A stretch of DNA of 64,000 nt, from the NCBI RefSeq assembly GCF_006912135.1, contig NZ_VIRS01000021.1, forward strand, positions 62,001 through 126,000. The letters run 5' to 3'. The notes beneath the pieces are model-generated. The model saw only the letters and a list, made by a program, of their open reading frames with translations, did not search any database and had not been told where the DNA came from. The stretch is from Cryptosporangium phraense. GTDB lineage: Bacteria; Actinomycetota; Actinomycetes; Mycobacteriales; Cryptosporangiaceae. How positions within the stretch are numbered: the first letter of the stretch is position 1; every line of letters starts with the position of its first letter. Below, in pieces: positions 39,580 to 50,791 of the stretch. A program made the translations under genes and the position numbers.

Positions 39580-41997
39580 GTGCGCAGGGCCGACTCACCC
39601 CAGCGATCCGGCTCCACGATCGGACGGCGGATCGTGCGGACGCTCGCGCTGCCGGTCGTCGCCGCGCTGGTGCTGCTGATCGTCATCGCGGGGATCCAGG
39701 TCGGCAACTACACCGCGGCCGCGGCCACCGCCCGCGCGGTCACGCTGGACCTCGCGGTCCAGGACCTCGTCCAGGAGCTCCAGACCGAGCGCGGCGTCAC
39801 CGCCGGCCTGCTCGGCGGCAACGCCGGGTTCCGCGCCGAGCTCGCCCGCGTCCGCGACCGGGTCGACGACGAGCGCACCGCCGTCGAGAGGCTGGTCGAG
39901 GACGGCGGCGCGGTCGAGGACCGGGTCGCGGACGCCCTGCGCGACCTCGAGGGGCTCGCCGGAGTGCGGGCCGGCGCCGACACCGGCGGCGCCGCCCGGG
40001 CGGCCACGTTCACGTTCTACACGGCCCGGATCGCCCAGCTCAGCAACGTCGACTTCGGTCTGGACAGCTCGACCGACGGACAGCTGCGCAGCAGCGTCAC
40101 CGCCCTCCAGGCGCTGGCCGACGTCAAGGAGGCCACCGCCCAGGAGCGGGCGTTCCTCAACGGCGTGTTCTCGGCCAGTGGATTCGGGAAGGGCGAGTTC
40201 CTGCAGTTCGTCACCATGCGGTCGGCCAAGGACGCGGCGCTGCAGACGTTCACCCGGTACGCGCCCGAGGACGCCCGCGCCTCGATGAGCTACGTCCTCG
40301 ACACCGGGGCGGCCCGCGAAGCCACCTACTTCGAGACCGTCGCCCTCAACGCCGGCGACGGACGGCCGCTGCAGGTCAACCCGCAGTCCTGGTGGTCGGC
40401 GCTGACCACGGTCCTCGACGACATGCTCAGCCTGCAGCAGCACGTGGGCTCGGTGATCCGGGCCCGGGCCGAGACGCTCCAGAACGGCGCGACCGTCCGC
40501 GTCGCCGTGCTGCTCGCGGCCGTCCTGCTGTCGGTCGTCGGATCGATCTACCTCGCGTTCCGCGCGTCGCGGTCGATCGCGCGGCCGCTGGCCGCGCTGG
40601 CCGGGGAGGCCAACCGCCTGGCCGGACGGGCGCTTCCGGACGCGGTCCGCCGCGCGTCGGCCGGCGACGACGCCCCGCCACCACCGCCGGTCCTGGTCTC
40701 CAGCGGGTCGACCGAAGAGGTCCGGCAGGTCGCCGACGCGTTCGACCGGGTCCAGGCCACCGCCTACGCGCTGGCCACCGAGCAGGCCCGGCTGCGCCGC
40801 AGCAGCGCCGAGTCGCTGGCCAACCTCGGGCGGCGCAATCAGAACCTGCTCCGCCGCCAGCTCGGGTTCATCACCCGGCTCGAGCGCGAGGAGTCCGACC
40901 CGACCGGCCTGGCCAACCTGTTCGAGCTCGACCACCTCGCCACCCGCATGCGACGCAACGCCGAGAGCCTGCTGGTGCTGGTCGGCGCGGCCAGCCCCCG
41001 GCAGTGGTCGCAACCGCTGCCGGTCGCCGACGTGATCCGGGCCGCCGTGTCCGAGGTCGAGGAGTACCGCCGGGTGACGCTGCGCCGGGTCGACGACATC
41101 CAGGTCGCCGGGTCGGTGGTCAGCGGCATCGCGCACATGCTGGCCGAGCTGATCGAGAACGGGCTGTCGTTCTCGCCGCCCGACGAGCACGTCGAGATCC
41201 ACGGGCGGCGGCTCGGCGACGGCTACCTGATCGCGGTGTTCGACCAGGGCATCGGCCTCAACCCGGCCGAGATCGAGCGGGCCAACCAGCGGCTGCGGGG
41301 CGAGGGCGACTTCATCACCGCGCCCGCGCGGTTCCTCGGCCACTACGTGGTCGGCCGCCTGGCGGCCGACATGGGCATCAGCGTCCAGCTCGCGCCGTCG
41401 CCGGTGACCGGGGTGACGGCCCGGATCACGCTCCCGCCGTCGATGCTGTCCGAGCCTCCGGCGGTGGAGGTCCCCGGCCCGGCCGAGCCGACCCTCGGCC
41501 GCCGTCTCCAACTGCACCAGGCCATTGCCGACGGGACGGGAGCGCGCCGATTCCCCGCCGCGGTGCCCGAACCGCGGTGGGCTCCACCGGTGAGTCCGGC
41601 GCCGATGGGTGCCGGGCCGGTCGGTGCGCCGCTCACCGTCGAATCGGTCGTCGTGGCCGGGCCGCTGCCGGTGCCGTCGCAGCGGCCGGGCAGCCCCGAG
41701 GTTCCGGCCTACAGCACGCTCAAGGCGCCGTCGTCGCTGGGCGTCGACCTGTACACGGTCGAGCCGGTCGACGACGCGGTCGAGCGCACCACGAACGGCC
41801 TGCGCAAGCGGACGCCGCGGGCCCGGCGGGCGACCACGACGACCGGGGCGCACCCGACCATCACCGCGCCGCCCGCGGGCGAACGCCCGGCGCTGCTCAA
41901 CGAGTCGCCGGACGCGCTGCGGGCCCGGCTGGCCGCGTTCCGCGACGGCGTCCACCGCGGCACCAGCTCGACCTCCGACGAAGGAAGCCTTTCGTGA
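39580..41997 (+). CDS. cvnA: Conservon sensor kinase-like protein CvnA (NIT-HAMP-HATPase)
   Basis: An 805-residue membrane protein. TM1 is about residues 19-41, followed by an extracytoplasmic nitrate/nitrite-sensing (NIT)-type domain (LQTERGVTAGLLGG...; about 45-300), TM2 near 308-330, a HAMP-like linker, and a GHKL ATPase (about 455-640: MLAELIENGLSFSPPDEHVEIHG, VFDQGIGLNPAEIERANQRL, GHYVVGRLAADMGISVQL). No classical H-box is evident, as in other CvnA. The last about 150 residues are Pro-rich and disordered. It is first of four overlapping conservon genes; CvnA-D complexes act like eukaryotic G-protein-coupled receptors in Streptomyces. Confidence 0.92.
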   Translation: MRRADSPQRSGSTIGRRIVRTLALPVVAALVLLIVIAGIQVGNYTAAAATARAVTLDLAVQDLVQELQTERGVTAGLLGGNAGFRAELARVRDRVDDERTAVERLVEDGGAVEDRVADALRDLEGLAGVRAGADTGGAARAATFTFYTARIAQLSNVDFGLDSSTDGQLRSSVTALQALADVKEATAQERAFLNGVFSASGFGKGEFLQFVTMRSAKDAALQTFTRYAPEDARASMSYVLDTGAAREATYFETVALNAGDGRPLQVNPQSWWSALTTVLDDMLSLQQHVGSVIRARAETLQNGATVRVAVLLAAVLLSVVGSIYLAFRASRSIARPLAALAGEANRLAGRALPDAVRRASAGDDAPPPPPVLVSSGSTEEVRQVADAFDRVQATAYALATEQARLRRSSAESLANLGRRNQNLLRRQLGFITRLEREESDPTGLANLFELDHLATRMRRNAESLLVLVGAASPRQWSQPLPVADVIRAAVSEVEEYRRVTLRRVDDIQVAGSVVSGIAHMLAELIENGLSFSPPDEHVEIHGRRLGDGYLIAVFDQGIGLNPAEIERANQRLRGEGDFITAPARFLGHYVVGRLAADMGISVQLAPSPVTGVTARITLPPSMLSEPPAVEVPGPAEPTLGRRLQLHQAIADGTGARRFPAAVPEPRWAPPVSPAPMGAGPVGAPLTVESVVVAGPLPVPSQRPGSPEVPAYSTLKAPSSLGVDLYTVEPVDDAVERTTNGLRKRTPRARRATTTTGAHPTITAPPAGERPALLNESPDALRARLAAFRDGVHRGTSSTSDEGSLS

Positions 41998-42419
41998 GCG
42001 TTGACACCTCCGCCGACCGGCACCAGTTCAACTGGCTGCTGGGCAACTTCGTGCACCAGACCGACGGGGTGCGGGACGCGGTCGCGGTGTCGTCGGACGG
42101 CCTGCTGATCGCCGCGTCCGACGGGCTCACCCGGGCCTCGGCCGACCAACTGGCGGCGATCGTCTCGAGCCTGGCCAGCATCGCCCGCAGCGCGTCCCGG
42201 CGCTACGACTTCGACGGGCTGAAGCTGATCATGATCGAGATGCGCCGGGGGTTCCTGCTGGTCTCGGTCATCGCCGGCGGGAGCTGCCTGGGCGTCGTGG
42301 CCGGGGGAGACAGCGACCTGGGGCTCGTCGGCTACGAGATCTCGCTGCTCGCCGACCGGTTCGGCGCGCTGCTCACCCCGGCGCTCATCGCGGAATCACG
42401 GCAGCACTTACCCCGATGA
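41994..42419 (+). CDS. cvnB: Roadblock/LC7-domain protein CvnB
   Basis: A 141-residue roadblock/LC7 protein: FNWLLGNFVHQTDGVRDAVAVSSDGLLIAASDGLTRASADQLAAIVSSLASIA followed by LLVSVIAGGSCLGVVAGGDSDLGLVGYEISLLADRFG, the standard CvnB sequence pattern. Roadblock proteins are non-catalytic platforms that can stimulate nucleotide turnover of the partner GTPase. GTG start overlaps the cvnA stop by 4 bases, and its own stop overlaps cvnC, so the products are made in coupled amounts. Confidence 0.95.
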   Translation: MSVDTSADRHQFNWLLGNFVHQTDGVRDAVAVSSDGLLIAASDGLTRASADQLAAIVSSLASIARSASRRYDFDGLKLIMIEMRRGFLLVSVIAGGSCLGVVAGGDSDLGLVGYEISLLADRFGALLTPALIAESRQHLPR

Positions 42420-42760
42420 CGCCCACCGAGCCGGAGGAGGATCCGGTCGTCAGACCGTTCATGCTCACCGGTGGGCGCACGCGACCCCAGCACGACGGCT
42501 TGCGGATCGAGACCCAGCTGCACGCCATCCCCGGGGCGCTCTCCGCGCCGCTGCGGTTCGAATCGCGGCGGATCGTCGAGCTCTGCCAGGCCCCGCGGAG
42601 CATCGCGGACCTCTCCGCGGCGCTCCGGGCACCGCTCGCCGTCGTGCGGGTGATCGTCGCCGATCTGGTCACCGACGGATACCTGCGGATCGACGAGCCG
42701 ATCTCCGACTTCACGCCGGAGTTGATCGAAAGGATCAGGGACCGTGTTCGGGCGCTCTAG
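42416..42760 (+). CDS. cvnC: DUF742 protein CvnC
   Basis: A 114-residue DUF742 protein. VVRPFMLTGGRTRP (residues 11-24), the central LRFESRRIVELCQAPRSIADLSAALRAPLAVVRVIVADLVTDGYL (winged-helix-like) and the C-terminal ELIERIRDRVRAL are the family signature. In conservons it binds the other Cvn proteins; the wHTH-like core has no known DNA target. ATG overlaps cvnB by 4 bases and the end overlaps cvnD by 17 bases. Confidence 0.95.
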   Translation: MTPTEPEEDPVVRPFMLTGGRTRPQHDGLRIETQLHAIPGALSAPLRFESRRIVELCQAPRSIADLSAALRAPLAVVRVIVADLVTDGYLRIDEPISDFTPELIERIRDRVRAL

Positions 42761-43343
42761 TGAGCCGATCGCACCGCCGATCGCCGTCAAGATCGTCGTC
42801 GGCGGCGGGTTCGGCGTCGGGAAGACGACGTTCGTCAGCGCGATCTCCGAGATCGAGCCGCTGATCACCGAGGCCGAGATGACCGAGCGGTCCATCGGGA
42901 TCGACGACCTGTCCGGGGTCGCGGGCAAGACGACGACGACCGTCGCGCTCGACTTCGGCCGGATCACGCTCGACCAGTCGCTGCTCCTCTACCTGTTCGG
43001 CACACCCGGTCAGGACCGCTTCGCGTTCCTCTGGGACGACCTGGTCGACGGGGCCCTGGGCGCGATCGTGCTGGTCGACACCCGGCGGGTGGAGGACTGC
43101 TTCACCACGATCGACTACTTCGAGGAGCGCGACATCCCGTTCGTCATCGGCGTCAACGTCTTCGACTCCCGGAGCCGGTTCGAGCTGGAGGAGGTGCGCG
43201 AGGCACTCGGCGTCGAGCCCGACGTCCGGCTCGTCGAGTGCGACGCGCGGTACCGCGAGTCGGTGAAGAACGTGCTGGTGGCGCTCACCGAGGAAGTGCT
43301 GATGCAGCGGTTGACCAAGCAGCGGGCGGGGTCGTCGTGGTGA
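42744..43343 (+). CDS. cvnD: Ras-like GTPase CvnD
   Basis: A 199-residue small GTPase of the bacterial MglA/CvnD type. P-loop GGGFGVGKTTF (about residues 19-29), switch II region FGTPGQDRF near 86, and the guanine-specificity motif in the degenerate form GVNVFDS near 133 (NKxD elsewhere) are visible. It would cycle between GDP and GTP and transmit the state of CvnA. GTG start lies inside the end of cvnC. Its stop overlaps by 4 bases the start of a solute-binding lipoprotein gene, an unusual extension of a conservon. Confidence 0.95.
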   Translation: MFGRSSEPIAPPIAVKIVVGGGFGVGKTTFVSAISEIEPLITEAEMTERSIGIDDLSGVAGKTTTTVALDFGRITLDQSLLLYLFGTPGQDRFAFLWDDLVDGALGAIVLVDTRRVEDCFTTIDYFEERDIPFVIGVNVFDSRSRFELEEVREALGVEPDVRLVECDARYRESVKNVLVALTEEVLMQRLTKQRAGSSW

Positions 43344-44278
43344 CGCGGGTGGTGGCCCTGTTGACGATCCTGGTGCTGGCCGGGTGCGGCGCCCAGACCG
43401 CGATCGCCCCGCCGCCCGGCGTCCCCGAAGGCCGGTGCGGGACCGTGAACGTCGCGGTCAACCCCTGGGTGGGGTACGCGGCGAACGCCGCGGTCGTGAG
43501 CTACCTGCTCAAGGAGCAGCTCGGCTGCACGGTCGTGCGGAAGGACCTGACCGAGGCCGCGTCCTGGGAGGGTCTGGCCAACGGCGGGGTCGACGTGATC
43601 CTGGAGACGTGGGGTCACGACGCCGAGAAGAAGCGGTACATCGACGACACGAAGGTCGCGGTCGAGCTCGGGTTGACCGGCAACAAGGGCGTGATCGGCT
43701 GGTACGTGCCGCCGTGGATGGCGACGCAGTACCCGGACATCACCGACTGGAAGAACCTCGACAAGTACGCGGACCTGTTCCGGACCGAGCAGTCGGGCGG
43801 TAAGGGCCAGTTCCTCGACGGGGATCCGTCGTTCGTGACCAACGACGCGGCGCTGATCCGGAACCTGAAGCTCGACTACACGGTCGTCTACGCCGGGAGC
43901 GAGGACAAGCTGATCGCCGCGTTCCGCGCCGCGCAGACCGACCGCACCCCGCTGATCGGCTACTTCTACGCGCCGCAGTGGTTGCTGTCGGAGATCAAGC
44001 TGGTCCACATCGCCCTGCCGACGTACAAGCCGGGCTGTGACGCCGACCCGAAGACGGTGGCCTGTGACTATCAGCCCTACGACCTCGACAAGGTGGGGCG
44101 GAAGAAGTTCGTCGACTCGGGTAGCCCGGCGGCGACGCTGATCAAGAACTTCACCTGGACCGACGAGGACCAGAACGCCGTGGCCAGGGATCTGACGGTG
44201 GGGAAGATGTCGCCGGACGCGGCGGCGAAGAAGTGGCTCGACGCCCACCGGGCGGTGTGGCAGGAGTGGATGCCTTAG
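43340..44278 (+). CDS. Glycine betaine/choline-type solute-binding lipoprotein (OpuAC-like), orphan
   Basis: A 312-residue exported lipoprotein. The signal peptide VVALLTILVLAGC ends in a lipobox with Cys16. The mature part is a type II periplasmic-binding protein of the OpuAC/ProX class: VNVAVNPWVGYAANAAVVSYLL, ASWEGLANGGVDVILETWGHD, GNKGVIGWYVPPWM and YFYAPQWLLSEIKL. The tryptophans in NPW, ETW, GWY and PPW may build the aromatic cage for quaternary ammonium ligands. No permease or ATPase gene is beside it; instead the GTG overlaps the cvnD stop (GTGA), suggesting it may present a ligand to CvnA (inference). Confidence 0.88.
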   Translation: MTRVVALLTILVLAGCGAQTAIAPPPGVPEGRCGTVNVAVNPWVGYAANAAVVSYLLKEQLGCTVVRKDLTEAASWEGLANGGVDVILETWGHDAEKKRYIDDTKVAVELGLTGNKGVIGWYVPPWMATQYPDITDWKNLDKYADLFRTEQSGGKGQFLDGDPSFVTNDAALIRNLKLDYTVVYAGSEDKLIAAFRAAQTDRTPLIGYFYAPQWLLSEIKLVHIALPTYKPGCDADPKTVACDYQPYDLDKVGRKKFVDSGSPAATLIKNFTWTDEDQNAVARDLTVGKMSPDAAAKKWLDAHRAVWQEWMP

Positions 44279-44470
44279 CCGGGGAGCTGACCCGGTTCGA
44301 GACCATCCGGCGGTGACGCCCATCCGTTCGTGCAGCCGATCAGCTATGTCGGATGACGTTGCCGTCCACTTGGGGTGACTTATTCCGGCGCGAGTTTTCC
44401 TGATGTGTTTCCCGTGCTATCTATTCCACGGGGAAATGGCTGCGGGTGGCGGCCGACTGATGGGGGACTC
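44279..44470. promoter_or_regulatory. Intergenic region before the FN3-MoxR-TIR gene unit
   Basis: A 192-base gap with lower GC than the surroundings, likely holding the promoter for the six-gene unit. A/T-rich TTATTCC and GCTATCTATTCC near 44383 and 44416 could host -10 elements, but I cannot fix one. GATGGGGGACTC before the ATG at 44471 is a reasonable ribosome site. No terminator hairpin for the conservon operon is obvious. Confidence 0.45.
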
Positions 44471-46444
44471 ATGGGGGAGCGGCAGCGCGCCTTCGGGCGC
44501 CGGCGGATCGCGATAGCGGTCACCGCTATTCTGACAATACTCGTCGGAATAGCGGTGACGCAGATACTCCATTCCGCACCGCGGGCCGACCGCCTTCGAT
44601 TCGCAGATGATTCCGCTTGGCTCGCAAGTACGGCCGCTGGTTCGTTATCGCACGTCATGGCTACTGCCAGGACAGCTGACGCCACTGTCGACGTTGGAGC
44701 GTCGGGTGCCGATCTCGTGGTGGGTCGCACCGATCGCTCGGCCATCGTGCTGGATCGCGGCGCGCGAACCGTGTCGCGCATCGACGGCGCGCATCTCTCT
44801 GTGGCGCGTGCGAAAGAACTTTCGTGGAGTCCGGATACGATTCTGTCGCGGACTACCAGTGCGTACCTAGTTGACGTCTCTGCAGGCCAAGTCAGTTATA
44901 TCGACCCTAACAGCCTTGATGAGCTGAAAGTCCCGATTCGGCTCGGGGTTGCGGTGGGAACGCCGATACTGACCGGTGACGGCTCTCTATGGATCCCTGT
45001 GCCCTCGACCGGGGAGATCATTCCGATTCGAAAGGGCCTCAGGGAATCAGCTGTCCGTGTCTCGCCTGACACGGCGGTGACCGAGATCGACGGCACGGTG
45101 TATGCCGTCGACGTCTTGCGTCGGGAACTGGTTCCGGTGCGGGGCGGCAAGCGAATCGGAGTCGCACTGACGGGATTGCCGCCCGATCCCGAGTTCATGG
45201 TCCCGGACGGACCGTCGGTTCGATTCGTCGCGGTGGAACAGCGATCTGCCGTACTCCACGTCGCGAATGCCGATGGTGAAGGCTATCGAGCGGTGAGCCT
45301 GCCTGTTCCGGGCGGTGGGGGCGGCGAGGTTCATTACGGAAAGCCTCTGACGGTGGGCGATTACGTCTACGTTCCCGATAACTCGACTGGTTCTCTGCTG
45401 AGCTACAACGTCCGGACCAGGCAGTTGTTGTCGTTGCCCATCACCGGTAGGCCGACGGAGCTCGAGGCCTTCCGGCAGGACGATCGAATCTGGGTGAACG
45501 ATCCGGCCGGGCCGGCGGCCGCAGTCGTCACGGGTCAATCGGTCCATCGCGTCACCAAGTACCAGACGGTTGCGAAGCCGAGTCCGAGTCCGAGTCCTAG
45601 CCCGACGGCGAATTCACCGACATCGGCGACGCCGGACGACGTGTTGGCTGCGCCGGCCGGCAACGACGCCGGCGGAGCGATGACAACATCCGGACGGCCC
45701 TCGCCGCCCACGGACCGGGCGTTGGCGTCTCCGTCGCTGGGTACCGGGTCGTCGGCGGAGTCCCGACCCGCGGCGGGTCCGGCGGAGTTGCCGCCGGTGC
45801 CGGGGACCCAGCCGACGGGCGGTGCGCCGCTCGACGGCCCGGCCGCCGAGGAGCCTGCGCCATCGAGCCCGGGCACGGTCCCGGCGCCGGAGGAACCCGG
45901 TCCCGATCGAACTCCGGGACCGGATCCCGCTCCTGATGGCTCACCCGCGACGGAAGCCCCGTCGCCCGGCCCGGGCACCCCGTCCGGCACCCCGGAACCG
46001 ACCACTCCGGGTCCTTCCGATTCTTCAGCGACGCCCGGACCTGAACCTTCTCCGACGACCGCCGAGCCCAGCCCGTCCTCGACGTCGGCCGAGCCGGATC
46101 CGACGTCCGAGCAGCCGCAGCCCGAGCCGTCGTCCGAGTCGCCCAGTCCGGAGCCGCCTCCGGTTTCGCCGCCCGGCGCAGTCTCCGTCTCGGTCTCGTC
46201 CGGACCCGGCTACATCGATGTCTCCTGGTCCCCTCCGAGCGACGGCGGCCCGACAGTGTTCTACATCGTCGCCTGGCTCGACACGACCGACGGCAGCTCG
46301 GGTGGCGTCCCGGTCTTCGACCCCGGAGCCACCAGCTACCGGATCACCGGTCTCAAGGCCGGTGACCAGGTACTCGTCGGTGTCGCGGCCGGCAATGAGT
46401 CGGGCCAGGGCCCGAACTCCTTCGTAGAAGCCACCGTTCAATGA
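44471..46444 (+). CDS. Membrane-anchored protein with Pro/Ser linker and C-terminal fibronectin type III domain
   Basis: A 657-residue protein: basic start, one membrane segment (about residues 12-33, IAIAVTAILTILVGIAVTQIL), an outside region of about 330 residues with repeated beta strands like a propeller (LVVGRTDRSAIVLDRGARTVSRIDG, GDGSLWIPVPSTGEIIPI, VGDYVYVPDNSTGSLLSYNVRT), a disordered Pro/Ser/Thr/Glu linker (about 369-565), and a fibronectin type III domain (about 566-657, PGYIDVSWSPPSDGGPTVFYIVAW). ATG at 44471 follows GATGGGGGAC. GC content in its first 1.1 kb is clearly lower than the neighbours. Its stop overlaps the MoxR start (ATGA), so it belongs to that system. Confidence 0.85.
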   Translation: MGERQRAFGRRRIAIAVTAILTILVGIAVTQILHSAPRADRLRFADDSAWLASTAAGSLSHVMATARTADATVDVGASGADLVVGRTDRSAIVLDRGARTVSRIDGAHLSVARAKELSWSPDTILSRTTSAYLVDVSAGQVSYIDPNSLDELKVPIRLGVAVGTPILTGDGSLWIPVPSTGEIIPIRKGLRESAVRVSPDTAVTEIDGTVYAVDVLRRELVPVRGGKRIGVALTGLPPDPEFMVPDGPSVRFVAVEQRSAVLHVANADGEGYRAVSLPVPGGGGGEVHYGKPLTVGDYVYVPDNSTGSLLSYNVRTRQLLSLPITGRPTELEAFRQDDRIWVNDPAGPAAAVVTGQSVHRVTKYQTVAKPSPSPSPSPTANSPTSATPDDVLAAPAGNDAGGAMTTSGRPSPPTDRALASPSLGTGSSAESRPAAGPAELPPVPGTQPTGGAPLDGPAAEEPAPSSPGTVPAPEEPGPDRTPGPDPAPDGSPATEAPSPGPGTPSGTPEPTTPGPSDSSATPGPEPSPTTAEPSPSSTSAEPDPTSEQPQPEPSSESPSPEPPPVSPPGAVSVSVSSGPGYIDVSWSPPSDGGPTVFYIVAWLDTTDGSSGGVPVFDPGATSYRITGLKAGDQVLVGVAAGNESGQGPNSFVEATVQ

Positions 46445-47481
46445 CCTCGACCTCACAGGAGCACCCGATCGTGTCCACCGCCTTCCACCGGGCCGAGAGC
46501 GCCGTGCCGCCGCACGACCAGATCGTCGCGTTCGCCACGTCCTTCCGGGACGTCGTCCGGAACGTCGAACAGGCCGTGCACGGGAAGACCGCCACGGTCG
46601 AGCTGGCCCTGATCTGCGTCTTCGCGCAACAACACATTCTGATCGAGGACGTGCCTGGCGTCGGCAAGACGCTGCTGGCCCGTTCGCTGGCCGGATCACT
46701 GGACCTGCCCTGCCGTCGCATCCAGTTCACCCCGGACCTGCTTCCGGCCGACGTGACCGGCTCGATCATCTACGACCAGCGAAATCATGCCTTCGACTTC
46801 CGGCCGGGGCCCGTCTTCACCAACGTGCTGATCGCTGACGAGATCAACCGCGCTTCTCCGCGCACGCAGTCGGCGTTGCTGGAAGCCATGGAGGAGGGCC
46901 AGGTCACCGTCGACGTGGAGTCCCGGCCGCTACCCTCTCCGTTTCTCGTCGTCGCCACCGAGAACCCGATCGAGATGCAGGGCACCTATCCGTTGCCGGA
47001 GGCTCAACTCGACCGGTTCCTCATTCGGGCCCGGCTCGACTACCCGGACGCCGAGGCGGAGGGCGCGATCCTTCGGGACGCTCGGACCGGTAGCCGTTTC
47101 CCGACCGTGTCGAAGGTGCTGACCGGCAGCGACGTCCTCGATCTGGTGGAGATCGCCCGTCGTGTGGAGGTCTCCCCGGCGATCGATGCCTACGTGATGC
47201 GGCTCGTGGCCGCGACCCGGTCGAGGCCGCAGGTCCGGCTGGGCGCCGGCCCCCGGGGAAGCATCGGGTTGATGCGGGCATCTCAGGTCCGGGCCGCTTC
47301 CCTGGGCCGGACCTTCGTCGATCCGGACGACGTGAAGGCATTGGCCGTCCCGGTGCTCGCCCATCGGCTCCTGCTGTCCGGTGACGCCGAGCGACGGGCG
47401 ACCTCCGCCGAGGAGGTGATCCGGGAGATCGTCGACGAGCTGCCGGTGCCTCGGGCGCTCGGTCTCCACGGGCGCCCATGA
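46441..47481 (+). CDS. MoxR-family AAA+ ATPase
   Basis: A 346-residue AAA+ chaperone-like ATPase. Walker A is PGVGKTLL (residues 72-79), Walker B LIADEINRASPRTQSALLEAMEEGQVTV with D133-E134, sensor 1 VVATENPIEMQGTYPLPEAQLDRF, and a sensor 2 lid domain follows from about 225. MoxR proteins remodel or activate partners encoded beside them, usually a DUF58 or vWA protein; here DUF58 follows with an ATGA overlap. It is coupled in the same way to the upstream FN3 gene. Cytoplasmic. Confidence 0.95.
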   Translation: MTSTSQEHPIVSTAFHRAESAVPPHDQIVAFATSFRDVVRNVEQAVHGKTATVELALICVFAQQHILIEDVPGVGKTLLARSLAGSLDLPCRRIQFTPDLLPADVTGSIIYDQRNHAFDFRPGPVFTNVLIADEINRASPRTQSALLEAMEEGQVTVDVESRPLPSPFLVVATENPIEMQGTYPLPEAQLDRFLIRARLDYPDAEAEGAILRDARTGSRFPTVSKVLTGSDVLDLVEIARRVEVSPAIDAYVMRLVAATRSRPQVRLGAGPRGSIGLMRASQVRAASLGRTFVDPDDVKALAVPVLAHRLLLSGDAERRATSAEEVIREIVDELPVPRALGLHGRP

Positions 47482-48635
47482 GCAGGCAGACACCGACCGG
47501 CGACGGTCGGATCGCTACGGCTCCTACCGCGGACGGGTACGGAGTGGGGGTTGCCGTCGCCGTCCTCGCGGTGGCCGCCATCGGCCTGGGTTATCCGCAG
47601 TTCCTGCTGCTCGTGCTCGGAGGAGTGGCGGCCGGCGTATTCGCCGTGGCGTGCACCTGGCGTCCGCCCGGCGTCGACGTCGTCCTCAGGGTGAAGCCGG
47701 ATCACATCTCCCGCGGCGAGCATGCGGACGCGGCGATCGAGCTGACGAATCGCGCGACGCGGTCGTCGCCGCCGTTCCAGATACTCGTGCCGGTCGGCGA
47801 TACGTCGGTCTCGATCGCCGCGGGCGCCGTCCCGGCCGGGTCGCGGGTGGAGGTGCAGGTTCCGCTGACCGGCCGGCGTCGCGGTCCCTTGGACGTCGGC
47901 CCGGTCGTGCTGCGGCGGACCGATCCGCTCGGTCTGCTCAGCCGCCGGTGGTCGACGCATGCCGCCGCCACGCTGCTCGTGCTGCCGGTCCGGCGCGATG
48001 TGCCGATCCGGGACCTCGCCGAAGCCGATACCGGGTCGGCACTGTCCGGCGGCCGGGCGTACTCGGGTGGCGTCACGTTCCAAGGGATCCGCAAGTACGT
48101 GGCCGGGGACGATCTCCGCCGCATCCACTGGCGTTCGTTCGCGAAGACCGGTGAGCTGATGGTCCGGGAGGAAGCCGCACACGGGGACCCCGCAGCGATC
48201 GTCCTGCTGGACGCCCGCGCGGCCTCCTACGGGTCGCCCGCGGAGCGCGCCGACCGATTCGAGCTCGCCACCGACGTCGCGGCCTCGATCGTCCTCGCCG
48301 CGTCGGCTCATGGCTACCGGGCCCGGCTGAGCGTCTACCCCGAGGACACGGACGGCCTCCACCTTCCGTCGGTCAACCGGCTGCTGGCGACTCTGTGCAC
48401 GGCCCGGCTGAGTGAGGAACCGGCCGCTCGCGAGTTGCCCTTCGCCCGGATCGTCATCTCCGGGACGTCGGCGGACCTCGACATCTCGTCCACCGGGCGC
48501 TTCCGCGGGGCCACGATCGTCCAGGTCGGTCCGGCCGGGGCGTTGCCGTCGACGGGTGGTGACACCGACGTCGTGTCGGCGCCCGACCTCGATCAGTTCG
48601 TAGCCGCCTGGTCGGATCGGGCGGTTCGTCGATGA
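47478..48635 (+). CDS. DUF58 (vWA-like) membrane protein
   Basis: A 385-residue protein with two close hydrophobic helices (about residues 20-60) and a cytoplasmic domain carrying the DUF58 core GVTFQGIRKYVAGDDLRRIHWRSFAKTGELMVREEA (about 195-230), followed by a vWA-like Rossmann fold beginning IVLLDARAASYG. The MIDAS DxSxS is reduced to DARAA, so metal binding is doubtful. DUF58 proteins work with MoxR ATPases and transglutaminase-like membrane proteins. ATG overlaps moxR by 4 bases and the next start overlaps its stop. Confidence 0.93.
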   Translation: MSRQTPTGDGRIATAPTADGYGVGVAVAVLAVAAIGLGYPQFLLLVLGGVAAGVFAVACTWRPPGVDVVLRVKPDHISRGEHADAAIELTNRATRSSPPFQILVPVGDTSVSIAAGAVPAGSRVEVQVPLTGRRRGPLDVGPVVLRRTDPLGLLSRRWSTHAAATLLVLPVRRDVPIRDLAEADTGSALSGGRAYSGGVTFQGIRKYVAGDDLRRIHWRSFAKTGELMVREEAAHGDPAAIVLLDARAASYGSPAERADRFELATDVAASIVLAASAHGYRARLSVYPEDTDGLHLPSVNRLLATLCTARLSEEPAARELPFARIVISGTSADLDISSTGRFRGATIVQVGPAGALPSTGGDTDVVSAPDLDQFVAAWSDRAVRR

Positions 48636-50791
48636 GCGTCCCTATCCGTCCACTGACGATCTGCGGCCTGCTCGCGGGCATTGCCGGGCTCAGCTTTCAC
48701 CGCGGGTTCGAGCTCGGGTCGCTGATCGCTCCGGTGCTCCTGGCCGCGGTCCTCCCGGTCGTCGCGGTCGGCGTTCAGTGCGTCCGGGGCCGGCCCGGAC
48801 TCGTCGTCGGTGTGGTCGTCTCGGCGGCGCTGTGGCTGGTCGTCGTCACGGTCACGCTCTTCCGGCCGAGTGAGGGTGTCCCGACCCTCGCCGCAATGCG
48901 CGATCTCGGAGATGCCCTGCTACACGGCTGGTCCCGATTCCTGGACGTCTCCCTGCCGGCCCCGGCGCGACCCGACCTGCTCCTCGTCCCAGAAGTCCTC
49001 ACCTGGTGTGCGGCGTCGTCGGCAGCCGGACTCGTCGTACGAACTCGCAGCCGCTTCGGCCCGGCGCTCCCGGCGGTCGGCGTGTTCGTCGTCGCAACTG
49101 TGCTCACGGTGCCGGGACCGGGGCCGGTCCTGATTTCGGCGGCGGCACTGGCCATCGGGGTCTGCCTCCTTGCGCTCAGCCGGTCCGAGAGTGTGCTGCC
49201 GGCGCCCGGCTTGCGGAGGCGGACGGCTCGGGCGCTGTCGGTCGGGGCCCCGTTGGTCGTCGCGTCGACGACGATCGTCCTTGCGGCCGGCTGGCTGCCT
49301 CTACCCGCGTCCACGCCGTACGACCCCCGCGACGCCGTCCGGACGCAGGTCGTCGGGCTGACCGAGAGCGACCCGTTGTCGCGCGCGCAGTCGTGGCTCT
49401 CCCAGCCGGGCCGGCCGCTGTTCACCGTGGCGTCGGAACGGCCTCGGAATCTCTCGCTCGCCGCGCTGAATCGATTCGACGGCGAGAGGTGGTCCTCGTC
49501 GGCCGAGTTCGTGTCGCCAGGACTGCGGCTCCCCGGAGCCGACCGGACGGCCGGCCCGACCGAACGGGTCCGGGAGACCATCACGGTTCAGGGGCTCGAC
49601 GGCTCGCTCCTCCCGGCGACCAGCACCCCGATCGAGCTCGACGGCGTGCGACCGCGGGTGGACCCGGACAGCGGGACCCTGCTCAGTTCCGGGCCGCTAG
49701 GGCGCGGCCTGACCTACGCAGTGGTCTCGGATGTTCCGAAGCCGGTCTCGGCGCGGACACTGGCGTCGCTGCGAGAGGCCACCGACTCATCGGCCCGTTC
49801 CGCGGTCGCCCTGCCACCCGGGACGCCGTCGGCGCTCACCCTGCTGGCGCAGTACGCCACCCGGTCATCGAACGGTGCGTTTCAACGCGCCGCCGATCTC
49901 GAGGCCTACCTCCGGGCCAACTACCGCAACAACCCGTCAGCGTCTCCGGGCGTCTCCTACGGACATCTGACCGAGTTCCTCGGGGGCTCCCACGGAGGGA
50001 CCTCGGCGCAGTTCGCGGCGACCTTCGCTGTAATGGCCAGGTCTCTTCGGTTACCGACCAGGATCGTGGTCGGCTTCGTCCCCGGCACAACGGTGCCAGG
50101 GACGTCGCTCCGGCAGGTCCGCACGGACGACGTACTCGTGTGGAACCAGGTCAAGTTCGCGGGCCTCGGATGGTTCTCGTTCTTTCCGACGCCGAACAAG
50201 TCCGCGCGGGAGAGCCCGGACGCCGCCGTGCTTCCCGCACCGGGCGAGACCGCGGCCCGGGCGGCGGCGGTGGCCGCGGCCCGCCGTCTGCCACCGGCGC
50301 ATGCCCAGGCCAGGGCGCGAACCGGCGCCTTCGACGCCCCTGTTCATCGAGAGGCGCTCGTGGTATTGGCGTTCCTCGTCCCGCTCGCGCTGTACGTCGC
50401 GGTCATCGTCCTCGTGCCGGTTCTGCGGCGACATCGTCGACGGTCCACCGGGTCGGCTCGGCATCGGCTCGTCGGAGCCTGGTGGGACGGGCTGACCGAG
50501 CTGGACCGGACCGGCGCCCTCGTTCCTTCCTCGGCCACCGCGAGCGAGGTCGCCGTCCTCGGGGGCCGCACCTCTGCGGCGATCGGCCCGGTCTTCGCGC
50601 AGCTGGCTCGGGACGCGGACCGAGCGCTGTTCTCGAACGACCCGGTGTCCGCCGACCAGGCCGCGTCCGCGTGGGCTCGGGCCGACGAGATCCGAGCAGT
50701 CCTGCGCCGGGGCCAGAAACCGGGCGCACGGCTCGGCTCGCGACTGTCGGTCCGCGCGCTGCGCATCCCGGCGGGGTGCCGGCATGACTGA
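48632..50791 (+). CDS. TgpA/transglutaminase-like membrane protein with lost catalytic triad
   Basis: A 719-residue protein: about six N-terminal membrane helices (to about residue 230), an outside domain and a C-terminal membrane helix near 570-592 with a cytoplasmic tail. The transglutaminase-like core aligns from YGHLTEFLGGSHGGTSAQFAATFAVMARSLRLPTRIVVGF. Active enzymes have GxC, HAW and FDPTP; here the positions are S458, L502 (LVW) and F518 (FFPTP). All three catalytic residues are replaced, so it should be an inactive binding or scaffold version. It is coupled by ATGA to DUF58 and overlaps the TIR gene by 8 bases. Confidence 0.9.
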   Translation: MSVPIRPLTICGLLAGIAGLSFHRGFELGSLIAPVLLAAVLPVVAVGVQCVRGRPGLVVGVVVSAALWLVVVTVTLFRPSEGVPTLAAMRDLGDALLHGWSRFLDVSLPAPARPDLLLVPEVLTWCAASSAAGLVVRTRSRFGPALPAVGVFVVATVLTVPGPGPVLISAAALAIGVCLLALSRSESVLPAPGLRRRTARALSVGAPLVVASTTIVLAAGWLPLPASTPYDPRDAVRTQVVGLTESDPLSRAQSWLSQPGRPLFTVASERPRNLSLAALNRFDGERWSSSAEFVSPGLRLPGADRTAGPTERVRETITVQGLDGSLLPATSTPIELDGVRPRVDPDSGTLLSSGPLGRGLTYAVVSDVPKPVSARTLASLREATDSSARSAVALPPGTPSALTLLAQYATRSSNGAFQRAADLEAYLRANYRNNPSASPGVSYGHLTEFLGGSHGGTSAQFAATFAVMARSLRLPTRIVVGFVPGTTVPGTSLRQVRTDDVLVWNQVKFAGLGWFSFFPTPNKSARESPDAAVLPAPGETAARAAAVAAARRLPPAHAQARARTGAFDAPVHREALVVLAFLVPLALYVAVIVLVPVLRRHRRRSTGSARHRLVGAWWDGLTELDRTGALVPSSATASEVAVLGGRTSAAIGPVFAQLARDADRALFSNDPVSADQAASAWARADEIRAVLRRGQKPGARLGSRLSVRALRIPAGCRHD

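Follow-up and report, generated by a model that had tools for sequence, protein, structure and literature searches.

A solute-binding lipoprotein encoded directly behind a conservon in Cryptosporangium phraense is a probable ligand-binding input subunit

INTRODUCTION

In the Gram-negative systems TorT-TorS, LuxP-LuxQ and ChvE-VirA, a periplasmic binding protein presents its ligand to the ectodomain of a kinase with a classical two-component output. The portion of the literature on GlnH-GlnX-PknG cited here describes an operon that encodes a solute-binding lipoprotein together with a membrane sensor and a kinase, and names a trimethylamine N-oxide (TMAO)-binding protein with TorS as a binding-protein-fed sensor (PMC6069109). 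The sensory inputs of conservons, in which CvnA, CvnB, CvnC and CvnD are encoded in this order, are called largely unexplored in the cited part of a 2026 mBio paper on CvnF8, where the accessory classes CvnE (P450) and CvnF (GAF) accompany CvnA proteins lacking a NIT domain (PMC13343842). For the mycobacterial mfp conservon, MfpA is reported to interact with the GTP-bound GTPase and thereby to influence DNA gyrase (PMC4316618). Here we analyse a conservon in a stretch of 64,000 nucleotides (nt) from Cryptosporangium phraense (assembly GCF_006912135.1, contig NZ_VIRS01000021.1, positions 62,001 to 126,000 of the forward strand; hereafter the window), in which a fifth gene encodes a lipoprotein of the OpuAC family of solute-binding proteins (SBPs). 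Our literature search, which covered few subscription papers, found no report of a binding-protein class of conservon fifth gene; the fifth genes that we encountered, in the parts of the publications cited, were P450, GAF and MfpA proteins, to which a binding lipoprotein adds a further kind. We consider it probable that this lipoprotein is the ligand-binding input subunit of the conservon, acting on CvnA, for choline/betaine-type compounds.

RESULTS

A solute-binding lipoprotein gene overlaps the last gene of a conservon

The locus consists of the following features.

39580..41997, + strand: cvnA, sensor histidine-kinase-like, 805 aa, GTG start (NIT PF08376, E 1.6e-44; HATPase_c, 3.1e-10)
39763..40452, + strand: NIT-type extracytoplasmic domain, CvnA residues 62-291 (PF08376, 1.6e-44; between hydrophobic helices)
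41994..42419, + strand: cvnB, Roadblock/LC7, MglB-like (PF03259, Robl_LC7, 1.6e-17)
42416..42760, + strand: cvnC, DUF742 (PF05331, 3.9e-25)
42744..43343, + strand: cvnD, Ras-like small GTPase, P-loop GGFGVGKTT (PF03029, ATP_bind_1, 1.4e-26; Ras, 1.8e-5)
43340..43343, + strand: GTGA stop/start overlap of cvnD and the lipoprotein gene (read from the sequence)
43340..44278, + strand: OpuAC-family (TmoX/ProX/ChoX-type) solute-binding lipoprotein, 312 aa (PF04069, 1.8e-39)
43376..43387, + strand: lipobox LAGC, Cys 16 (read from the sequence)

By their Pfam matches, CvnA (HATPase), CvnB (Roadblock), CvnC (DUF742) and CvnD (small GTPase) follow one another in the order of a conservon. An earlier sequence-only reading of this DNA had given CvnA a large outside NIT-type domain, and the PF08376 match does lie between two hydrophobic helices in the hydropathy profile (residues 21-39 and 308-326). 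The GTGA overlap that the same reading had described is seen directly, the GTG start of the lipoprotein gene at 43340 sharing these four letters with the cvnD TGA (43341-43343). All neighbouring genes of the locus overlap, cvnA and cvnB at 41994-41997 (4 nt), cvnB and cvnC at 42416-42419 (ATGA), and cvnC and cvnD at 42744-42760. An alternative, longer lipoprotein start in the list of open reading frames (ORFs), at 43238, falls within cvnD, and GTG 43340 gives a signal peptide and the LAGC lipobox. We rejected an artefact of ORF choice, as frame, lipobox and domain recur across 38 loci.

The lipoprotein had also been called an orphan with no permease or ATPase gene beside it. Searching the window with ProV and ProW by tblastn gave no ProW match, and the sole match was an ABC-ATPase-like gene near 0.7-1.5 kb of the window, 38 kb off. 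Importer genes beside the lipoprotein were not found by these searches or in a crude gene list, which is not a Pfam scan of every window gene, and a transporter half hidden within the window was rejected on the same grounds. Beside the lipoprotein gene, neither the permease nor the ATPase gene was found that would accompany an ABC-importer subunit in the role of ProX or TmoX. The orphan label therefore holds for the immediate surroundings but not for the genome, where the closest of five OpuAC matches, a paralogue 59% identical to the window lipoprotein, lies on contig 4 inside a complete ProV-ProW-SBP operon. The ProW of this operon passes the NCBIfam cut-off for the choline ABC permease and its ProV that for the betaine/proline/choline ATPase subfamily. 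Given this paralogue within a full transporter operon, the window on its own gave no grounds for discarding a transport role. The window protein is thus kin to the binding protein of a transporter but is encoded with a conservon instead.

The conservon-linked lipoprotein recurs across genera

Absence of recurrence would have counted against the sequence-only reading; instead, the gene order was found at 38 distinct loci, more than chance would explain. Within the window's genus, three of four genomes carry the conservon-SBP unit. In an order-wide search, SBP relatives (E<=1e-40) were present in 25 of 298 genomes at 30 places; the SBP followed CvnD at six of these (G000, G001, G003, G062, G076 and G211) and ProW at 23 of the 24 others. 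A scan of an 84,980-species genome collection found 286 relatives, the best 80 of which were analysed. The SBP lay directly after CvnD in 35 of these 80 (36 counting Planosporangium L071, with ProW between), and the other 44 were of the transporter type; since the 80 are the closest relatives only, 35 of 80 is not a frequency. Together with the window and two genus relatives, and with duplicates removed, this makes the 38 distinct conservon-linked SBPs. Their hosts are mostly Micromonosporaceae, along with Kineosporiaceae and the window's genus, and include Actinoplanes (in the wide sense), Micromonospora, Salinispora, Pseudosporangium, Mangrovihabitans, a Dactylosporangium metagenome-assembled genome (MAG) and Kineosporia.

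All 38 distinct loci have 0-163 nt between the aligned end of CvnD and the aligned start of the SBP, and 33 of them offer an in-frame start codon whose overlap with the CvnD stop is 4 nt; these counts are not independent because the conservon-linked loci are related by descent. A start at -4 arises easily by chance given a TGA and the right frame, and we therefore place the weight on the kept frame and distance. A permissive pattern found a lipobox-like motif in all 38 conservon-linked copies and in 68 of 74 ProW-linked copies; being common to the latter, it marks a lipoprotein and not a sensor role.

In a tree of 117 proteins, from which the duplicate rows L161, L186 and L192 had been dropped, a branch (98/89) splits the 38 conservon-linked SBPs and two intermediates (L071 and L073, which group with L074) from 77 others, 72 of them ProW-linked. 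The remaining five are of other kinds. The simplest reading of this tree would be one origin of the conservon-linked SBPs. Such an origin is also what one would see if an SBP duplicate had come to lie downstream of cvnD a single time and had remained there without functional coupling. We hold this explanation to be highly improbable, as placement, ligand box and lipobox were kept while the other surroundings were reshuffled, and as the CvnA ectodomain correlates with the lipoprotein (next section). In Planosporangium mesophilum (L071/L181), which diverges close to the base of the conservon-linked SBP group, the order is CvnABCD-ProW-SBP. Here the permease separates CvnD from the lipoprotein, and the fetched flanks gave no match to the ProV ATPase.

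The CvnA ectodomain has diverged where the lipoprotein is missing

Nine genomes contain a further copy of this conservon type, which we identified through its CvnB. One of these copies (L284, G304:C125) looks decayed, with no CvnA match and a short CvnD match only. In the other eight no SBP was found after CvnD, and a whole-genome search showed only two SBPs already placed elsewhere. We compared the CvnA proteins of these eight with those of 37 SBP-linked loci, leaving out duplicates (L068, L077, L108 and L122), L284, and L069 and L079 (no usable CvnA), and including L071. NIT identity between SBP-less and SBP-linked CvnAs was 43.7%, compared with 62.6% among SBP-linked ones. The corresponding values were 66.5 and 68.5% for the HATPase, 85.9 and 86.7% for the DHp-like and 57.0 and 60.4% for the HAMP-like region. 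The ratio of NIT to HATPase identity did not overlap between the groups, at 0.63-0.68 for the eight and 0.76-1.42 for the 37; the lower end of the second range is what matters, its top being unreliable (CvnA of L047 is matched in two frames, and the HATPase values of the SBP-linked copies go down to 43.7% in one case). Within the same eight genomes, SBP-linked copies are 74% identical in the ectodomain and 85% in the HATPase, and SBP-less copies 49% and 75%.

In a tree of the CvnA intracellular parts with CvnB and CvnD, for which more distant conservons lacking an SBP served as root, seven of the eight SBP-less copies were grouped within the SBP-linked ones; support for the clade with the window's three is 99.7/100. 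L287, the eighth, and three g66 copies (L291, L293 and L295) were placed apart, with weak support. The tree suggests one well-supported loss of the lipoprotein, and at most three, each with a changed ectodomain. Divergence of the ectodomain where the SBP is missing is what docking on CvnA would predict, and is no proof of it.

The lipoprotein has a predicted quaternary-ammonium pocket

The window lipoprotein scores 136 bits against the OpuAC Pfam model (gathering threshold 21.2) and also has the fold of an OpuAC-type SBP. Its predicted structure has a mean predicted local distance difference test score (pLDDT) of 90.6. Foldseek matched this structure best to TmoX with TMAO (4xz6, E 4.2e-24), and at lower ranks to DmpX with dimethylsulfoniopropionate (third), to OpuAC, open and with glycine betaine (fourth and fifth), and to ChoX with choline (2reg, sixth). 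According to the cited section of the TmoX literature, the TmoX box has seven residues, Trp55, Trp102, Phe106, Glu131, Trp177, Phe220 and Trp222 (PMC8918994). By sequence mapping, Trp55, Trp102, Trp177, Phe220 and Trp222 correspond to W43, W91, F165, Y208 and Y210 of the window protein, which gives it the aromatic box of a quaternary-ammonium binder. In an alignment of 33 conservon-linked and 31 other sequences, the latter being 29 ProW-linked ones and two without ProW beside them, W43, W91, Y208 and Y210 do not vary, and position 165 always holds F or Y. These features suggest that the window lipoprotein likely binds a quaternary ammonium, with polar contacts other than those of TmoX. The NCBIfam choline-binding model matches it at 6.7e-12, yet with 45 bits against a cut-off of 379. 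We rejected naming a substrate from the NCBIfam choline or ProX SBP models, whose matches fall far under their cut-offs.

Conservon units adjoin choline and betaine genes in several genera

Among the 44 transporter-type loci of the best 80, a hand count of the fetched flanks found a BetA match in 34, and BetA with BetB in 29, adjoining proV-proW. Several conservon units lie beside such genes. Four Actinoplanes (L168, L178, L180 and L182) carry betA-betB-proV-proW-SBP-soxB-soxA-soxG-cvnABCD-SBP, all in one direction, and in Micromonospora pattaloongensis (L045) the conservon unit is divergent from betA-betB-proV-proW-SBP. In Pseudosporangium (L166), GMC-proV-proW-SBP is followed by the three genes described next and then by cvnABCD-SBP, and a MAG (L079) has cvnBCD-SBP and then betA-proV-proW-SBP. 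Directly 5' of the Pseudosporangium cvnA are genes for a dimethylglycine-oxidase-like protein (DAO, FAO_M, GCV_T), a sarcosine-oxidase-like protein of the monomeric kind and a Rieske protein whose nearest match is glycine betaine monooxygenase (GbcA-like, 199 bits against a cut-off of 670). NCBIfam cut-offs were passed by BetA (L045), SoxA and SoxB (L066) and choline-type ProW and ProV (L016); betaine-aldehyde dehydrogenase and SoxG were best matches under the cut-off. Several of the hosts are close kin, and we judge the distinct layouts to number about five.

Two layouts stand apart. In Winogradskya (L049 and L058) the order is SBP-cvnABCD-SBP, with a transporter-type SBP directly upstream of cvnA and ProW matches on other contigs. 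In L291 (G235) and L295 (G394), a conservon lies downstream of a GMC-proV-proW-SBP-demethylation cluster, and its CvnA ectodomain is strongly diverged (35-38%).

Neighbourhoods of this kind bring up the possibility that the lipoprotein does both, CvnA being informed of transporter traffic by it, or by the SBP of the transporter itself, in what would be a transport-coupled sensor. Consistent with such a sensor, both units share a cluster in Actinoplanes, Amorphoplanes and Pseudosporangium, the Planosporangium conservon (L071/L181) has a permease with no ATPase found nearby, and the conservons of L291 and L295 adjoin a cluster with a transporter SBP only. We nevertheless regard it as decidedly unlikely. 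By our hand computation, the two units lie within 30 kb on one contig in 13 of the 33 genomes that have both (within 11.2 kb in 12); in the remaining 20 they are more than 30 kb apart or on different contigs, and 4 Mb apart in the single-contig G001. Five genomes with no transporter found, described below, also speak against it.

Sensing weighed against transport

Among the 38 genomes with the unit, the conservon's SBP is the sole SBP of its type (E<=1e-20) in Micromonospora zingiberis, M. craterilacus, M. endophytica, M. radicis and M. rosaria. A TmoX-type double permease was not found in these five genomes, and M. rosaria has a 43% single permease; completeness, where known, is 100% (G076) and 99% (G211). 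That the five keep conservon and SBP without a transporter argues against a spare transport part, the five being related species and perhaps reflecting one loss. In these five, the ligand may serve as a signal and not as a nutrient, or may be another compound.

Several findings pull the other way and weaken the case for a choline/betaine input to CvnA. A transporter-type SBP is also carried by 33 of the 38 conservon-SBP genomes. The sequences compared in the ectodomain test are related to one another, and duplicates drift apart for other reasons as well. In the pocket, TmoX Phe106 and Glu131 are both changed, to D94 and I119, and there is no like residue for Trp152 and Ala153 of DmpX (residues as given in the cited part of PMC10030565), which is why we expect polar contacts unlike those of TmoX. 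At position 71 (DmpX Thr64), conservon-linked copies have T 21, S 8, A 3 and K 1 times (n=33) and other copies K 23, L 4, T 3 and D 1 times (n=31); as this position separates the groups, sensor and transporter SBPs may prefer different compounds. BetA was not found in the window's genome at E<=1e-100; sarcosine oxidase alpha is present (contig 36). In the five Micromonospora, sarcosine oxidase alpha was not found (E<=1e-80), and BetA (E<=1e-100) is absent in three, with relatives of 42-45% in the other two, so that the ligand there need not be choline. Finally, L291 and L295 have a related conservon beside a betaine-type cluster and no SBP in the 1.5-1.8 kb after CvnD, which means that the SBP is not obligatory.

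The lipoprotein might be an extra SBP that feeds a ProV-ProW transporter encoded elsewhere, the conservon merely sharing its mRNA. The further transporter-type SBPs fit this explanation, since a ProW match accompanies them in all 33 genomes and the window's genome has its own on contig 4, and so does the Planosporangium permease gene between CvnD and SBP (L071, L181). Several SBPs on one core transporter would also have a precedent, as Chen et al. 2010 reportedly described a core choline/betaine/carnitine transporter recruiting several SBPs. The five transporter-less Micromonospora stand against it, with the reservation about kinship made above, and it leaves unexplained both the tight placement behind cvnD and the ectodomain divergence where the SBP is missing. 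On balance we find this explanation unlikely, and favour the lipoprotein as the input subunit of the conservon.

A second lipoprotein class, and conservons without one

Elsewhere in the window's genome (G000:C18; L257 2701-8242), a conservon with a NIT-bearing CvnA is followed, with a 4-nt overlap, by the gene for a 398-aa lipoprotein. This protein belongs to SBP_bac_8, and its best NCBIfam model is YdcS (331 bits against a cut-off of 725). The same YdcS-like arrangement with a 4-nt overlap is present in G001 (L258 10576-16247), and the lipoprotein also follows CvnD in G002 (L228). Among 27 further YdcS-like relatives (1.5-kb flank), CvnD was matched in none, an ABC-ATPase in 25 and an aldehyde dehydrogenase in 13. 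Importer-type lipoproteins appear, then, to have been recruited by conservons at least twice. A 75%-identical copy of the YdcS-like lipoprotein lies ~6 kb upstream in G000.

We examined 30 of 52 CvnD matches from eight genomes. A choline-type SBP followed CvnD in seven and a YdcS-like one in two, and at L203 a choline-type SBP comes after CvnD with a permease between. The other 20 were without a binding lipoprotein by tblastn and a crude gene call (no Pfam), and we rejected such a lipoprotein as a habit of all conservons. At L207 (G076:C4) and L214 (G211:C30), a possible further SBP was noticed by eye ~1.3 kb after the CvnD of another conservon, behind a beta-propeller/lactonase-like gene. We lean slightly towards regarding conservons as a general chassis for SBP-fed G-protein signalling, into which importer lipoproteins have been plugged at least twice (choline/betaine-type and YdcS-like, the latter at G000:C18), with a ligand that can be guessed from the source importer.

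Just 3' of the window lipoprotein, 44468-50791 holds a tight operon for FN3, MoxR ATPase, DUF58 and transglutaminase-core proteins. Membership of the lipoprotein in this operon was rejected, with no match in the 15-kb stretches of two genus relatives (L013 and L014).

DISCUSSION

In the mechanism that we propose, the lipoprotein would be anchored on the outer face of the membrane, and in its aromatic box it would enclose choline, glycine betaine or a closely related quaternary-ammonium compound. The loaded lipoprotein would dock on the NIT ectodomain of CvnA, which would alter the activity of CvnB/CvnC and hence the GTP state of CvnD. Where genes for choline/betaine uptake and oxidation lie next to the conservon, they would most likely be under the control of this output; elsewhere, the output may respond to a broader nutrient or host signal. 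Contact with CvnA, the exact ligand, the direction of the signal and the target genes are what we infer here.

The sequence-only reading, in which the lipoprotein captures a quaternary-ammonium or similar ligand and presents it to CvnA, is partly supported. Recurrence of the arrangement and its coupling to cvnD speak for it. The ligand class gains from an aromatic box that is mostly kept and from the choline/betaine neighbourhoods, and the proposed link to the CvnA ectodomain from its divergence where the lipoprotein is missing. Its description of the complex as GPCR-like is too loose, as CvnA looks like a two-helix histidine-kinase-like receptor and not a seven-helix one.

A conservon that carries a binding protein whose fold and ligand class are known, and that in several genera adjoins the pathway for this ligand class, narrows the candidate ligands to a short list and offers a way to activate a conservon experimentally. 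The lipoprotein also extends the range of conservon accessory proteins by an extracellular kind, and the arrangement would join two fields, those of importer-derived receptors and bacterial Ras-like GTPases. Where the arrangement recurs, the compound that a conservon senses could be predicted.

The window locus is like Cvn8 and Cvn9 of Streptomyces coelicolor in its cvnA-B-C-D order, Roadblock protein, DUF742 protein and Ras-like GTPase. It differs from conservons with CvnE and CvnF accessories, P450 and GAF proteins beside a CvnA without NIT, in that its fifth gene encodes a binding lipoprotein and its CvnA has a NIT domain, as in five of five scanned SBP-linked loci (window, L045, L048, L050 and L066). 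The mfp conservon likewise has a fifth gene directly after it, but MfpA is an output partner, whereas we read the lipoprotein as an input. TmoX, DmpX, OpuAC and ChoX have the fold and most of the aromatic box in common with the window lipoprotein; they serve ABC transporters, and Glu131 of TmoX is Ile in the window protein. GlnH-GlnX-PknG of mycobacteria and other actinobacteria resembles the locus in combining a lipoprotein and a membrane sensor in one operon, and differs in its ligand (aspartate/glutamate/asparagine) and its Ser/Thr kinase output, in place of which the window locus has a small GTPase. With systems of the TorT-TorS, LuxP-LuxQ and ChvE-VirA type, the locus would share the logic of a binding-protein-fed ectodomain, from which it departs by using a GTPase switch.

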